This document shows positions 50,884-57,327 of a DNA stretch of 64,000 nt, piece by piece. The notes below the pieces were generated by a model, which was given only the letters and a program-made list of their open reading frames with translations, had not been told where the DNA came from and searched no databases. Position 1 is the stretch's first letter; the number at the start of each line of letters is the position of its first letter. The position numbers were made by a program, and so were the translations under genes. The DNA comes from Dyadobacter sp. Leaf189 (GTDB lineage: Bacteria > Bacteroidota > Bacteroidia > Cytophagales > Spirosomataceae): positions 989,999-1,053,998 of the forward strand of contig NZ_LMPS01000001.1 of the NCBI RefSeq assembly GCF_001424405.1. Direction: 5' to 3'.

Positions 50884-52260
50884 ATGGAAAAACGAGGATT
50901 TCTTACAATAGAAGAACTGAGGAAAAGAATTGGTGAGGGCTTGATAGAGACGGTTATAGTTGGTTTTACAGACCATTATGGGCGGTTAATGGGAAAGCGC
51001 GTCGACGCGGAGTATTTCCTGGACTCCATGCTGGAAGACGGTACCCACGCCTGCAATTACCTGCTTACCACAGACGTGGCCATGGAGCCGGTGCCGGGTT
51101 ATCAGTATGCCAATTGGGAGCTGGGTTATGGCGATTTTCACCTCGTACCCGATTTCAATACCCTGCGCATCGCCGACTGGCTGGAAAAAACTGCGCTGGT
51201 AATCTGTGACGTGTACAATGAAAAGTCCCACATTCCTGAATCAATAGCACCGAGATCCGTTCTCAAAAAACAGCTGGACCAGCTCGCAGGAGACGGAATG
51301 CAGTGTTTCGCGGCTTCCGAGCTCGAATATTATCTGTTGGAAAATACTTATAAACAAGCTTTTCAGCAGGGTTATCAGAACCTGTCGCCAGCGGGGTATT
51401 ACCTGGAAGACTATCATATTTTGCAGGGAACACGGAATGAAAAATTCACTTCAGTTGTAAGAAGGCACCTTAAAAATTCGGGCATTCCGGTGGAAACCTC
51501 CAAAGGAGAGTGGGGTCTCGGCCAGCACGAACTGAATGTGAAATATGCGGATGTACTTTCCATGGCCGACAACCACGTGGTATATAAGCAATGCATGAAG
51601 GAAGTCGCTGATGCAATGGGGCTTTCGGTAACGTTCATGGCCAAATTTGCAACAGACCAGGCCGGATCTAGCAGCCATATTCACATGAGTTTGTGGCAGG
51701 ATGGAGAGAATGCATTTGCAGGAGATCAGGAGTTTGGCCCGGTAAAAGGATCTGACTTGTTCCGCTGGTTTCTCGGCGGCTGGATAAAGCACGTACCGGA
51801 TGTGATGCCATTTTACGCACCAACAATCAATTCATATAAACGTTTTGTAGACGGATCCTGGGCGCCGACGCGCCTGGCTTGGAGCTATGATAACCGGACA
51901 GCCGGGTTCAGAGTGGTAGGGAGCGGGAAGAGTTTGCGTATCGAGTGCCGCATTCCGGGTGCCGATTGCAATCCTTATCTGGCATTCGCCGCCTCTCTGG
52001 CTTCGGGCTTGGCCGGGATCAAAAACAAGGTAGAGCCACCGGAGTGTTTTGTCGGCGATATTTATGCTGCTGCGCATTTACCGCGGGTACCCTATACTTT
52101 GGCAGAAGCAGTAAATATGTTCGAGCACAGCGAATTTGCCAAAAATGCTTTCGGACAAGAAGTAGTGGCACATTACACGCATTTCTTTCGCACGGAACAA
52201 AGAGCATACGATACTTCGGTCACAGACTGGGAACGAAAGCGCTACTTCGAGCAGATATAG
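50884..52260 (+). CDS. glutamine synthetase-family ligase (gamma-glutamyl-amine ligase-like)
   Basis: 458 residues. The GS fold is shown by the metal ligand segment ASELEYYLLE (near 140), ETSKGEWGLGQHELNVKY (about 200-217), the SSHIHMSLW metal histidine (about 262) and APTINSYKRFVDGSWAPTRLAWSYDNRTAGFRVVG (about 318-352). The chain lacks the Tyr-adenylylation C-terminal segment of GlnA and starts with ETVIVGFTDHYGRLMGKRV, as in PuuA/IpuC/FluG-type enzymes that join glutamate to amines. Together with the aldehyde dehydrogenase and amidotransferase downstream this suggests amine catabolism. A Y1 transposase gene begins 29 bp after its stop. Confidence 0.85.
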   Translation: MEKRGFLTIEELRKRIGEGLIETVIVGFTDHYGRLMGKRVDAEYFLDSMLEDGTHACNYLLTTDVAMEPVPGYQYANWELGYGDFHLVPDFNTLRIADWLEKTALVICDVYNEKSHIPESIAPRSVLKKQLDQLAGDGMQCFAASELEYYLLENTYKQAFQQGYQNLSPAGYYLEDYHILQGTRNEKFTSVVRRHLKNSGIPVETSKGEWGLGQHELNVKYADVLSMADNHVVYKQCMKEVADAMGLSVTFMAKFATDQAGSSSHIHMSLWQDGENAFAGDQEFGPVKGSDLFRWFLGGWIKHVPDVMPFYAPTINSYKRFVDGSWAPTRLAWSYDNRTAGFRVVGSGKSLRIECRIPGADCNPYLAFAASLASGLAGIKNKVEPPECFVGDIYAAAHLPRVPYTLAEAVNMFEHSEFAKNAFGQEVVAHYTHFFRTEQRAYDTSVTDWERKRYFEQI

Positions 52261-52289: not shown

Positions 52290-52751
52290 ATGGCAGATAC
52301 CTTTTCACAGATTTACCTGCATTTTGTTTTTAGCGTTAAAAACAGGCAGAGCTTAATACCCCAGGAACATAAGGAAGAGTTGCACAAATACCTGACGGGA
52401 CTGGTACAGAGTCGTAAGGCAAAAATGCTGGCTGTGCATTGTATGCCTGATCACGTGCATATTTTTGTAGGTTTCAAGCCAGTGATTTCCATCTCTGACT
52501 TTGTGAAAGAAATCAAGGTAGAGAGCAACGAGTTTATCAACGCGAAAGGCTGGTCAAAGTTTAAGTTTGCGTGGCAGGAAGGCTTTGGTGTTTTTTCGTA
52601 TTCCCATTCACATATAGATTCGGTAGTGAAGTATATTTTGAACCAGGAGGAACATCATCGTGAAAAGCCTTTCCAGGAGGAGTACAAGGCATTTTTAGAA
52701 AAGTTTCAGATCTCGTTTAAGAGCGAGTATTTGTTTGAATTTTTTGATTGA
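52290..52751 (+). CDS. Y1 (IS200/IS605-type) transposase, RAYT-like
   Basis: 153 residues. The HUH metal motif is H55-V-H57 in MPDHVHIFVG, and the catalytic tyrosine is most likely Y115 in SVVKYILNQEEHH. Such single-strand DNA transposases act at hairpins beside short guide sequences. The start lies only 29 bp after the glutamine-synthetase-like gene, so there is no room for an IS left end; instead an array of about 15 short hairpins begins 110 bp downstream. This fits a domesticated REP-associated tyrosine transposase rather than a mobile IS. No tnpB or accessory gene. Confidence 0.88.
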   Translation: MADTFSQIYLHFVFSVKNRQSLIPQEHKEELHKYLTGLVQSRKAKMLAVHCMPDHVHIFVGFKPVISISDFVKEIKVESNEFINAKGWSKFKFAWQEGFGVFSYSHSHIDSVVKYILNQEEHHREKPFQEEYKAFLEKFQISFKSEYLFEFFD

Positions 52752-52863
52752 ATACCAAGTTCAGTTTTCCGCATACATGCAAATCAATTGATCCGTAAAT
52801 TGAGTAAACGATGTTGCGTGGATAATGAAAAGGTGCAGAAGTGTTCTTTTATCAATAAACAAG

Positions 52864-53510
52864 ATGCTCCCCGGTGCATTCTCAGCCCCAGCGGGGCTTC
52901 CTGTTTATAGAAAACGGTAGTCCGGTTGATGTTTGGGCTCCCGCGGAGCCTCCTAACATATCGAATGCAAGATAGACAGGAGGCTCCGCAGGAGCCTAGG
53001 GCTTGATTGTCACGGGGGGCTTTTCTATAAACAGGGGGCTCCCTCTGGAGCCTCTTATGACTTGTAGCGGAACATTTTATAAACAGGGGCCTCCTCTGGA
53101 GTCTTATTCGACTTTTGGAGGAATGTTTCTGTAAGCCCGGTGCTCCACGAGCACTTGCAGCCCCAGCGGGGCTTCCTGTTTATAGAAGGCAGATTTGCCG
53201 TTGATGTTTTGGGCTCCGGCGGAGCCTCCTAACATGTCAATGCGGGATAGACAGGAGGCTCCGCAGGAGCCTAGGGCTTGATTGTCACGGGGGCTCTTCT
53301 ATAAACAGGGGGCTCCTCTGGAGCCTCTTAAGACTTGTAGCGGAATATTTTATATAAAGGGGGCTCCTCTGGAGCCTTATTCGACTTTTGGAGAAATGTT
53401 TCTGTAAACCCGGTGCTCCACGAGCACTTGCAGCCTCAGAGAGGCTTCCTGTTTATAGAAAACGAATTTGTCGTTGATGTTTTGGGCTCCGCAGGAGCCT
53501 CCTGACAACA
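52864..53510. repeat. tandem array of REP-like hairpins (about 275-bp unit, 2.3 copies)
   Basis: The gap 52752-53605 has no gene; 52864-53510 is a repeat array. Unit A spans 52883-53157, unit B 53158-53430, and a partial unit C 53431-53510. Each full unit carries six short palindromes with 6-7-bp arms and 3-4-nt loops, for example AGCCCC-AGC-GGGGCT (52884-52898), GGCTCC-CGC-GGAGCC (52936-52950), AGGCTCC-GCA-GGAGCCT (52981-52997), GGCTCC-CTCT-GGAGCC (53037-53052), GGCCTCC-TCT-GGAGTC (about 53088-53102) and GTGCTC-CAC-GAGCAC (53140-53154). Recurring flanks are CCTGTTTATAGAA and its inverse TTCTATAAACAGG. The upstream 52752-52863 is plain AT-rich sequence. Confidence 0.93.
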
Positions 53511-53605
53511 AACAATATGGAACATACCCAACTTCTACCGCGATCGATATAACATATTTTGCACTCAATTACTTAAAGATTATACATCCATAAATACACA
53601 AACCA

Positions 53606-54379
53606 ATGCGTTTAGAAGGTAAAATTGCCCTTATCACAGGCGGAAGCGGCGGAATTGGCCGTGAGACTGCCATTTTGTTTGCCAAAGAGGGTGCCCAGAT
53701 CGTGGTTACCGATGTAAATGACCAGGCCGGGCAGGAAACTGCCGATGCGATCGTAAGTGCAGGGGGAGAAGCCTTTTTCCTTCATTCCGATGTATCCAAA
53801 GCCGCAGACTGCGAGGCGGCAGTGGCTTTCGCAGAAGAGAAATTCGGTAAGCTGAACATTATCTTCAACAACGCGGGGATTATGCACAGTGATGACGACA
53901 ATGCGGTTACGACAGAGGAATCTGTGTGGGACTTAACGATGAACATCAATGCAAAAGGTGTATTTTTGGGTTGTAAATATGGAATTCCGGCTTTGCAACG
54001 CGCAGGCGGGGGATCAATTATTAACACTGCATCTTTTGTCGCCATTCTGGGCGCGGCTACTCCGCAGGTTGCTTACACGGCAAGTAAAGGCGCTGTGCTT
54101 GCATTGACCCGCGAGCTGGCGATTATTCACGCACGGGAAAATATCCGCGTGAATGCATTGTGTCCGGGACCGCTTCGTACAGAGCTTTTGATGAAATTTC
54201 TGAATACCGAAGAGAAGAAACAGCGCCGCCTCGTACATATCCCGATGGGAAGGTTTGGGGAAGCAAAAGAAATGGCCTACGCCGCATTGTTCCTGGCTTC
54301 CGACGAATCCTCATTTGTTACCGGTACTGACTTTCTGGTAGATGGTGGGATCACATCCGCTTACGTAACTCCTGTTTGA
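53606..54379 (+). CDS. SDR, glucose-1-dehydrogenase-like
   Basis: 257 residues. Nucleotide motif TGGSGGIGRETA (10-21), NNAGIMHSDDDN (about 90-101) and the active-site YTASKGAVLALT (Tyr about 156). The end SSFVTGTDFLVDGGITSAYV is typical for classical SDRs that form tetramers. Placed between the ligase and aldehyde dehydrogenase genes, it could oxidise an alcohol or amino-alcohol intermediate of the same pathway; inferred. The start is 95 bp after the hairpin array. Confidence 0.88.
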   Translation: MRLEGKIALITGGSGGIGRETAILFAKEGAQIVVTDVNDQAGQETADAIVSAGGEAFFLHSDVSKAADCEAAVAFAEEKFGKLNIIFNNAGIMHSDDDNAVTTEESVWDLTMNINAKGVFLGCKYGIPALQRAGGGSIINTASFVAILGAATPQVAYTASKGAVLALTRELAIIHARENIRVNALCPGPLRTELLMKFLNTEEKKQRRLVHIPMGRFGEAKEMAYAALFLASDESSFVTGTDFLVDGGITSAYVTPV

Positions 54380-54384
54380 AAAAA

Positions 54385-54487
54385 GGAGGAAAGGGAGGAT
54401 GGAGGAAGGGGAGGAAGTGAAAAGCTATATACCAGCTATTTTTTCAATTTCTTATCTTTCTTCCATTCTCCATCCTCCCTTTCCTCC
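54385..54487. repeat. polypurine/polypyrimidine inverted repeat
   Basis: A 20-bp G/A-rich stretch at 54385-54404 is exactly complementary to 54468-54487, with a 63-nt loop. The purine-rich strand continues to about 54416 and the pyrimidine-rich part to 54500, followed by nine A just before the next start codon. It may form a long hairpin or a triplex. Confidence 0.85.
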
Positions 54488-54508
54488 GTCCTCCCTTTCT
54501 AAAAAAAA

Positions 54509-55897
54509 ATGATTCAAAAAACGATAAGTCCGATTGATGGTTCTGTGTATGTGGAGCGTACATTGGCCGATGATGCTGCTGTTGAAAAGGCCCTGGAAAC
54601 CGCAGTGGTGGCGCAGAAGTCCTGGCGTAAAACTTCATTGGAACAACGTGCCGCGATTTGTTTGAAAGCGGTTGAATATTTCCTTGATAATGCCGACGAA
54701 ATTGGATTGGAACTCACCTGGCAAATGGGCCGGCCGATCAGGTACACAGCCAATGAGATCAGAAAAGGTTTTCAGGAACGTGCCAGGTACATGATTGCTG
54801 TTGCCGAAACTGCATTAGCTGACGTTGAGGTGGAGCAATTGCCCGGATTTAAAAGATTTATCCGTCGTGATCCGCTGGGTGTCGTGTTTGTGGTGGCGCC
54901 TTGGAACTATCCTTACCTCACTTCGGTCAACTCTGTCATTCCGGCAATTATGTCCGGGAATGCGGTGATCCTCAAACATGCGCAGCAAACGCCGCTTTGC
55001 GCTGAACGTTATGCAGCCGCATTCGAGTATGCAGGATTACCGGCAGGTGTTTTTCAATTTTTGCATTTAAGTCACACGCAGGTTGCGCAGGTGATTGGGG
55101 ATAGTCGCATTGACTACGTCGCATTTACCGGGTCGGTTGAAGGCGGACAAGCGGTACAACGCGCTATCAACGAAAGGTTTATCGTAGGCGGACTTGAACT
55201 AGGCGGGAAAGATCCTGCCTATGTACGCGCTGATGCAAATCTGGCCGATGCTGTTGAAAACCTGGTCGATGGTTCATTCTTTAACTCCGGCCAATCTTGT
55301 TGTGGCATTGAGCGCATTTATGTGCACCAGGATGTATATGATGAATTTGTGAGTGAATTTGTAAAACTGACAAAAACCTACACGCTGGGAAACCCTACTG
55401 AGCAGGAAACTACATTGGGGCCAATGGTGCGGACTGCAGCTGCGGACTATGCGCAAAAGCAGGTTGAAGACGCGATCGCGCAGGGAGCTACTCCGCTGAT
55501 TGATAATAGCTTGTTTTCCTCTCACCAAAAAGGAACACCTTACTTTGCGCCGCAGGTGCTGGTGAATGTGGATCATTCCATGGAGATCATGACAGAGGAA
55601 ACCTTCGCTCCCGTTGTCGGGATTATGCCGGTAAGTGGTGATGAAGAGGCGATCAGGTTGATGAATGACAGCCAGTACGGACTAACAGCATCTATCTGGA
55701 CAACCGATATGGATGCCGCGCTGGCGATAGGGGAGCAGGTAGAGACTGGTACCTGGTTTATGAACCGCTGCGACTACCTTGATCCTGCATTGGCGTGGAC
55801 CGGCGTGAAAAACTCTGGTCGCGGCTGTACATTATCTAAAATCGGCTACGAAGCTTTAACCCGGCCGAAATCATTTCATTTAAAGATCAACAGCTGA
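54509..55897 (+). CDS. NAD(P)-dependent aldehyde dehydrogenase
   Basis: 462 residues. General base E230 in GGLELGGKDPAYV, catalytic nucleophile C264 in FNSGQSCCGIERIYVH, and the VVAPWNYPYLTSVNSVIPAIMSGNAVILKHA cofactor segment (128-158). It resembles succinate-semialdehyde and gamma-glutamyl-aminobutyraldehyde-type dehydrogenases. In the same unit, 6 bp ahead of the amidotransferase, it could make the acid from a gamma-glutamylated aldehyde, as PuuC does. Substrate inferred from context only. Confidence 0.9.
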   Translation: MIQKTISPIDGSVYVERTLADDAAVEKALETAVVAQKSWRKTSLEQRAAICLKAVEYFLDNADEIGLELTWQMGRPIRYTANEIRKGFQERARYMIAVAETALADVEVEQLPGFKRFIRRDPLGVVFVVAPWNYPYLTSVNSVIPAIMSGNAVILKHAQQTPLCAERYAAAFEYAGLPAGVFQFLHLSHTQVAQVIGDSRIDYVAFTGSVEGGQAVQRAINERFIVGGLELGGKDPAYVRADANLADAVENLVDGSFFNSGQSCCGIERIYVHQDVYDEFVSEFVKLTKTYTLGNPTEQETTLGPMVRTAAADYAQKQVEDAIAQGATPLIDNSLFSSHQKGTPYFAPQVLVNVDHSMEIMTEETFAPVVGIMPVSGDEEAIRLMNDSQYGLTASIWTTDMDAALAIGEQVETGTWFMNRCDYLDPALAWTGVKNSGRGCTLSKIGYEALTRPKSFHLKINS

Positions 55898-55902
55898 GTA
55901 AA

Positions 55903-56604
55903 ATGAAAGTTGGCTTGCTGGAATGCGACCACGTCAGGGACGATCTGACGCACATTGCCGGCGACTACCGGCAAATGTTTCCTGCGTTGTTCTCGCAGGT
56001 TGCGCCGAATTGGGAGTTTGTTTTCTACGATGTTTGCAATGGAATTTTCCCTGCTTCGGTTCACGAATGCGATCTGTACATTTCCACGGGTTCCAAATCC
56101 TCCGTTTACGATCAGGAAGACTGGATATCTCTGTTGAAAGTCTTCATAAATGACCTTTATAGATCGGAGAAAAAGTATGTGGGGATATGCTTTGGACATC
56201 AGATGCTTGCGGAGGCACTGAGCGGGAAAGTAGTAAAAGGAAGTCCGGGCTGGTGCGTGGGGGTGCATTCATTTTCATTGATCCAAAATGAAGAATGGAT
56301 GAAGCCCGAAATGGAAGATTTTAATCTCCTGATGATGTGCCAGGATCAGGTGGTACAAATGCCGCCAAGCAGCACTTTGTTAGCCAAAACAGCCGATTGC
56401 CCGGTAGGTATGTTCCAGGTAGGTTCGCATATGCTGGGCATACAGGCACATCCCGAGTTTCCCGTACCTTACAACCGGGCATTGATGGAGCTGCGTGTGG
56501 AACGTATCGGGCAGGCGAAAGTGGATGCAGGTATTGCCAGCCTTGCATTACCTACGCATGAATTAACAATTGCAACGTGGATAAAGAATTTTGCGATGCT
56601 ATGA
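55903..56604 (+). CDS. class I glutamine amidotransferase-like hydrolase
   Basis: 233 residues. Triad: C96 in GICFGHQMLAEAL, H183 and E185 in QAHPEFPVPY. No synthetase domain is attached, as in GMP-synthase-like and gamma-glutamyl hydrolase-type proteins (compare PuuD, though that is a different subfamily). The start is 6 bp after the dehydrogenase stop, so they are surely cotranscribed. It may release glutamate from a gamma-glutamyl intermediate made by the ligase at 50884. Confidence 0.88.
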   Translation: MKVGLLECDHVRDDLTHIAGDYRQMFPALFSQVAPNWEFVFYDVCNGIFPASVHECDLYISTGSKSSVYDQEDWISLLKVFINDLYRSEKKYVGICFGHQMLAEALSGKVVKGSPGWCVGVHSFSLIQNEEWMKPEMEDFNLLMMCQDQVVQMPPSSTLLAKTADCPVGMFQVGSHMLGIQAHPEFPVPYNRALMELRVERIGQAKVDAGIASLALPTHELTIATWIKNFAML

Positions 56605-57281: not shown

Positions 57282-57327
57282 AGCCGACAGCCGACAGCCG
57301 ACAGCCGACAGCCGACAGCCGACAGCT
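57282..57327. repeat. heptanucleotide tandem array after the kup stop
   Basis: Six perfect AGCCGAC units plus AGCT on the plus strand, which is GGCTGTC in the sense of kup mRNA. The array begins inside the kup TAG stop codon. It is inverted relative to the array at 57178, so the convergent gap can fold into a long hairpin. Confidence 0.9.

Follow-up and report, generated by a model that had tools for sequence, protein, structure and literature searches.

What is an intact gene for a single-strand transposase, followed by a dense array of small hairpins, doing between the two halves of an operon? The question is raised by a window of 64,000 nucleotides from Dyadobacter sp. Leaf189, which is the whole stretch of DNA analysed here. 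The original prediction described the locus as a Bacteroidota counterpart of the REP-associated tyrosine transposases (RAYTs), in which a superunit of six hairpins had been amplified and in which the array might also modulate transcription of the split operon. The features of the locus are listed in Table 1.

Table 1. Features of the transposase locus and of the surrounding operon (window positions).
Feature	Position	Strand	Remarks
Glutamine-synthetase-like gene (gamma-glutamyl ligase type)	50884..52260	+	upstream operon half; Pfam Gln-synt_C
TnpA_Y1 subclass 1.2 ssDNA transposase, 153 aa	52290..52751	+	HUH H55/H57, Y115; WQ95-96; YILNQEEHH
REP-like hairpin array	52860..53509	.	2.3 units of 273-275 bp; 13 perfect and 2 imperfect hairpins
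H1 unit	52884..52910	-	hairpin 52884-52898, tag CTATAAACA 52902-52910
H2 inverted hairpin pair	52936..52997	.	52936-52950 and 52981-52997, without exact CTA tag; pair recurs at 53212-53272, single copy at 53485-53499
H1 unit	53025..53052	+	tag CTATAAACA 53025-53033, hairpin 53037-53052
Degenerate H1 unit	53077..53103	+	tag TTATAAACA 53077-53085, imperfect hairpin
H1 unit	53159..53185	-	hairpin 53159-53173, tag 53177-53185
H1 unit	53299..53325	+	tag 53299-53307, hairpin 53311-53325
H1 unit	53432..53458	-	hairpin 53432-53446, tag 53450-53458
ACTCAATTACT	53563..53573	+	right border of island; closely follows the upstream gene's stop in empty-site relatives
SDR dehydrogenase	53606..54379	+	downstream operon half
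Aldehyde dehydrogenase	54509-55897		after SDR gene
Class-I glutamine amidotransferase	55903-56604		after aldehyde dehydrogenase gene

The transposase belongs to subclass 1.2

The open reading frame is intact and its product matches the Pfam family Y1_Tnp (PF01797, E=5.3e-26), with H55, H57 and Y115 invariant across 43 homologs, in line with the intact HUH/Tyr transposase of the prediction. The RAYT-like label held for the REP-transposase-like pairing of gene and palindromes, but not for the protein. The window protein scores 75 bits against the NCBIfam profile transpos_IS200 (cutoff 55) and 31 bits against REP_Tyr_transpos (cutoff 80). A Y---Q--HH signature is present in 174 of the 185 usable homologs, including the window protein, and the Y---NP signature of RAYTs in none of the 185. 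Further subclass 1.2 traits are the PDHVH motif (DH[IV]H), WQEG (the WQ motif), YILNQEEHH and a length of 153 aa, against about 148. Its AlphaFold model (pLDDT 93) is closest in fold to the TnpA proteins of IS608 and ISDra2, with TnpA_REP (4er8) ranking lower; by profile score and fold this is a Y1 gene of IS200 type, as found in the IS200/IS605 family. Sequence thus places the transposase among IS200-like TnpA proteins of subclass 1.2 and, because it carries Y---Q--HH, lacks Y---NP and falls below the REP_Tyr_transpos cutoff, outside the RAYTs in the strict sense, whatever its mode of action.

Subclass 1.2 was defined by Quentin et al. (2018, PMC6006769) as a low-copy group with the Y---Q--HH signature and a median length of 148 aa, whose members come mainly from Cyanobacteria and Bacteroidetes, as a rule lack IS200 terminal structures and have no REPs. 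The automatic REP search in that study followed a GT[AG]G rule, to which the hairpins described below do not conform. Our search of the open-licence literature did not turn up any account of REPs in subclass 1.2; a 2025 REP survey (PMC12306157) gives palindrome counts for Bacteroidota without transposases.

The hairpin array in the window

The predicted 2.3 copies of units of 275 and 273 bp were recovered both by TRF (52883-53507, period 273, 89% matches) and from the spacing of direct repeats (275 and 273). The estimate of about 15 hairpins agrees with 13 perfect ones, with stems of at least 6 bp, and two imperfect ones near 52868 and 53088. The array is beyond chance, because its strand folds with z=-7.05 relative to dinucleotide shuffles (0 of 20 shuffles equal it) and it holds five hairpins with CTA at a fixed offset, against one in the remaining 62 kb of the window. 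The CTGTTTATA flank noted in the prediction is real and is part of a 9-nt tag, CTATAAACA, at constant distance from the loop. A search against Rfam returned only sub-threshold miRNA matches.

The six-hairpin superunit did not survive as a general block of amplification. We found no second copy of it in the genome, and it is therefore a local duplication. The basic unit is best read as one tagged hairpin at a pitch of about 50-55 nt; at some places elsewhere an H1-H2 pair is the repeating unit.

A tag at fixed distance from the loop

We scanned the flanks of 180 distinct homolog loci, testing the trinucleotide CTA at each offset from each hairpin. CTA begins exactly 18 nt 5' of the hairpin loop in 124 of these loci, any other offset being represented by 6-24 loci, and it occupies the fixed offset in 4 of 79 far control loci. 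The consensus from 129 loci, in which CTA itself was the selection criterion and the other positions were not selected on, reads TT(T/G)-CTAY-NAAYA-N4-stem-loop, with a stem of 5-7 bp and a loop of 3-5 nt. Neither GTAG nor GTGG, which mark the 5' foot of RAYT-associated palindromes, is found at that place; the consensus there is N4, and the conserved element is the tag CTAYNAAYA. Within 400 nt of the gene tagged hairpins reach 4.48/kb, whereas the remaining intergenic DNA of these 67 loci has 0.035/kb, an enrichment of about 130-fold, and the distance between neighbouring hairpins peaks at 50-59 nt.

The description of the gene as lacking IS ends has to be qualified: homologous genes mostly have inverted hairpins on both sides, and in the window species the hairpins lie downstream of the gene. 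Tags facing the gene outnumber those facing away by 72:16 upstream and 52:37 downstream of it in homolog loci. Stem sequences vary by lineage and the tag persists: GCTCC is found in Dyadobacter and Mucilaginibacter, CAAACCC in Bacteroidales, TTGCTCC in Algoriphagus and GTTGC on a complete plasmid of Bernardetia. This plasmid (NZ_CP147018), an independent complete sequence with the same anatomy beside tnpA, was one of only two relatives found in a plasmid search; the other, from Persicobacter, has hairpins without the tag. About one third of the loci lack the CTA tag, among them some deep clades (e.g. L252 and Persicobacter L312) that have other hairpins, and other transposase lineages are also adjoined by hairpins with different stems. 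Tag similarity tracks transposase identity even among pairs less than 50% identical (Mantel 0/300). Between distant pairs N4 did not vary in step with the transposase, which does not support N4 as a co-evolving guide. The recurrence of gene and tagged hairpins across Bacteroidota suggests that a group reported to be devoid of REPs sustains a miniature mobile repeat family of its own.

Hairpins tagged with CTATAAACA or CTACAAACA also lie beside subclass 1.2 genes on MAG contigs (L088, L099, L102 and L132) assigned to Acidobacteriota, Poribacteria, Verrucomicrobiota and Ignavibacteria, through either horizontal transfer or binning error. Sequences in one genome (G061) that resembled multiple identical IS copies proved to be assembly variants of one locus. 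The three contigs concerned (C10, C25 and C26; L301-L303) differ in array length, reflecting strain variation or an assembly bubble, and hairpin repeats of this kind may confound short-read assembly.

States of the operon site

The gene and array truly split an operon, as had been proposed, because the glutamine-synthetase-like and SDR genes stand only 34-44 nt apart at the empty site of eleven relatives. Three further states of this gap were observed: hairpins only (G148, with a gap of 133 nt, G160, G211, G204 and G199), a decayed transposase without an array (G112), and an intact transposase, usually with hairpins (13 genomes). Thirteen of the 14 orthologs in the genus occupy the same operon position; the 14th (G202) is elsewhere and its operon site is empty. 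Array length varies between orthologs. The four states support the view that small hairpin units were inserted into, or excised from, an intergenic site, and they likewise support long-term residence of the gene at the gap. The site thus offers a natural allele series of empty, hairpin-only and transposase-bearing forms. In the window, the array may affect transcription between the operon halves.

Other repeats occur in the neighbourhood. In G157 (L272) the same gap is occupied by tandem copies of a hairpin from an unrelated family (GCCCTGATGGGGC, flanked by a TTACCAGTG-like sequence), and it seems to be a place where more than one repeat family inserts. In the window, two 16-bp repeat pairs in inverted relation, GGAGGAAAGGGAGGAT and CTCCATCCTCCCTTTC, lie at 54385-54499, after the SDR gene and before that for the aldehyde dehydrogenase, and are possibly terminator-like. 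The 7-mer AGCCGAC is present in 6.4 perfect copies at 57282-57326, between phosphoribosyltransferase-like and KUP-type potassium transporter genes.

Dispersed families in the genome

Repeats were counted genome-wide by pattern searches with reversed-pattern controls. A search for the palindrome plus its flank, suggested with the original prediction, did find further copies elsewhere in the genome. There are three divergent Y1 genes and three dispersed hairpin families, one per gene (matches against controls: A, 32 vs 7; B, 10 vs 1; C, 11 vs 0). The palindromes flanking the window gene thus form a dispersed intergenic family specific to it, as is characteristic of RAYTs. Eight other clusters were examined, seven of which overlap no open reading frame of at least 90 aa, and several lie between convergent genes. 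The third and more distant Y1 gene (C1:414071-414475; L033/L270) has its own dispersed family, CCGTCGGCTgaAGCCGACGG, with 11 copies against 0 in the control; at this locus a small GCAGC hairpin sits between two large hairpins.

The intergenic position of these clusters, often between convergent genes, and that of the array between two operon halves, would suit elements that terminate transcription or affect mRNA stability in the operon and nearby genes and that lie beside a transposase by chance. We regard this as very improbable: such elements would explain neither a tag at fixed offset nor the strong enrichment beside this gene family, most stems have no T run after them, the clusters hold many hairpins in both orientations, and relatives without hairpins at the same operon site show no apparent gene loss.

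A conventional IS200/IS605-type insertion sequence ending in hairpins, from which the dispersed hairpins would derive as non-autonomous MITE/PATE-like elements with no domestication involved, is also a rather improbable reading of the locus. The protein is indeed nearer to the IS200 than to the RAYT profiles, its nearest solved folds are those of IS608 and ISDra2 TnpA, and the usual bracketing by inverted hairpins resembles IS ends. Against this, the hairpins are far more numerous than the genes, and the multiple near-identical gene-bearing copies typical of IS200/IS605 elements are missing: the Y1 paralogs within the genome are divergent, and all but one of the genus orthologs are fixed at a single site.

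Repeat number follows the cognate transposase

We compared 48 congeneric genomes for the window-type transposase and repeat (A) and the second type (B), the two transposases being 44% identical. A-repeats have a median count of 88 in genomes with the A-transposase and 8.5 in those without (p=8e-6), and do not depend on the B-transposase (p=0.19); B-repeats number 24 with the B-transposase and 4 without (p=4e-5), and do not depend on the A-transposase (p=0.75), all four p-values treating species as independent. Each repeat type therefore follows only its own transposase, a double dissociation that has exceptions. The A association was moderately significant in phylogenetic contrasts (r=0.40, p=0.014), a correction that rests on a tree of one gene (SDR) from 30 genomes.

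The condition set with the prediction for its refutation, arrays of this kind in relatives without such a gene, applies in part. Copies co-occur with this transposase across relatives, but five genomes without the A-transposase carry 40-89 A-repeats (G201 89, G148 66, G200 47, G160 46, G213 42). Similarly, G051 and G087 have 27 and 29 B-repeats without a B-transposase. Loss of the gene followed by slow decay of the repeats might explain these exceptions.

Retention of repeats without the gene would also be expected if the hairpins were once substrates of this transposase lineage and are now inert, with arrays changing by slippage and recombination only. The 275-bp block is a simple tandem duplication for which no second copy was found in the genome, and arrays vary in length both from ortholog to ortholog and among the assembly variants of a single genome, as slippage predicts. 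We nevertheless judge inert hairpins to be unlikely, as most lineages retain an intact gene whose catalytic residues are invariant, and repeats are few where it is decayed or absent (8 in G112, 9 in G157 and 3 in G190, against 114/90, 32 and 124 in the sister species).

Proposed mechanism and implications

Taken together, gene and array probably constitute a REPtron-like locus, in which the transposase belongs to a lineage (IS200-like TnpA subclass 1.2) distinct from the classical RAYTs, and the hairpins, marked by a new tag, are its substrates. In the mechanism that we propose, the transposase would persist as one gene copy, passed on for the most part at a constant location. The substrate would be the DNA sequence 5'-TT(T/G)CTAYNAAYA-N4-[5-7 bp stem]-3-5 nt loop, in which CTA starts 18 nt ahead of the loop. 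If the protein works like the enzymes of IS608 and TnpA_REP, it would bind this hairpin when it folds in single-stranded DNA of the lagging strand, and Tyr115 would cut near the tag; joining of the ends would then allow units of one or two hairpins to enter intergenic sites and to multiply at a pitch of about 50-55 nt. Amplification may also occur by slippage between the 50-nt repeats, and the 275-bp duplication could have arisen locally, either through such cutting and joining or because replication slipped from one repeat to another. Known Y1 enzymes bind hairpins that fold in ssDNA, and their cut sites are chosen through a tetranucleotide beside the stem (PMC8266576). By analogy, CTAY could be the cleavage site or adjoin one and N4 could be the guide, although the latter is only a guess because N4 failed to co-vary with the enzyme when distant pairs were compared.

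We lean slightly towards a broader proposal, namely that subclass 1.2 is a separately domesticated REP-mobilising lineage across Bacteroidota (and some other phyla represented in MAGs), with its own tag class, CTAYNAAYA at -18, beside GTAG and CGTC, and a cleavage site within the tag. The published classification left the role of subclass 1.2 unknown, having found neither REPs nor IS ends; a DNA partner makes this role testable and suggests that single-strand transposases have given rise to REP-type miniature elements on at least two occasions. Annotators of Bacteroidota genomes also gain a name for common intergenic hairpin clusters.

Comparison with known systems

In the IS200/IS605 family (IS608, ISDra2), which provides the closest profile and folds, subterminal hairpins are bound as ssDNA, and the tetranucleotide between the 5' motif and the stem of our elements resembles the guide position. 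In contrast to this family, the window gene has no adjoining tnpB, is present as a single copy at a location fixed across species, and is accompanied by many gene-less hairpins and by arrays. The protein agrees with published subclass 1.2 (PMC6006769) in signature, length (153 aa; median 148), low copy number and distribution in Bacteroidetes. Whereas no REP was reported there, we find tagged hairpins beside 124 of 180 members, a sample in which cyanobacterial members are left out.

GTAG- and CGTC-tagged palindromes and TIRYT elements are families set by a short tag at one end, some of them tied to tyrosine transposases (Di Nocera et al. 2013, PMC3733652). The present repeats are likewise palindromic families defined by a short tag, but carry neither of these two, and their tag lies in the flank at constant distance from the loop. 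The REP/RAYT (TnpA_REP) systems of Proteobacteria, with their REPtrons, BIMEs and REPINs, similarly consist of an HUH/Y1 transposase flanked by short dispersed intergenic palindromes, often inverted or clustered, each transposase having its own family and the hairpins a conserved tag on their 5' side. They differ in the class of the enzyme (class 2, Y---NP, in RAYTs; class 1, Y---Q--HH, here) and in the tag, which is GTAG at the stem foot in REPs and CTAYNAAYA, with CTA 18 nt before the loop, in our elements. The stems are short and unbulged here, and copies number from tens to about 140 rather than the hundreds of REPs. The locus is thus best read as a RAYT/REP-like system whose transposase comes from a different lineage and whose tag is new.
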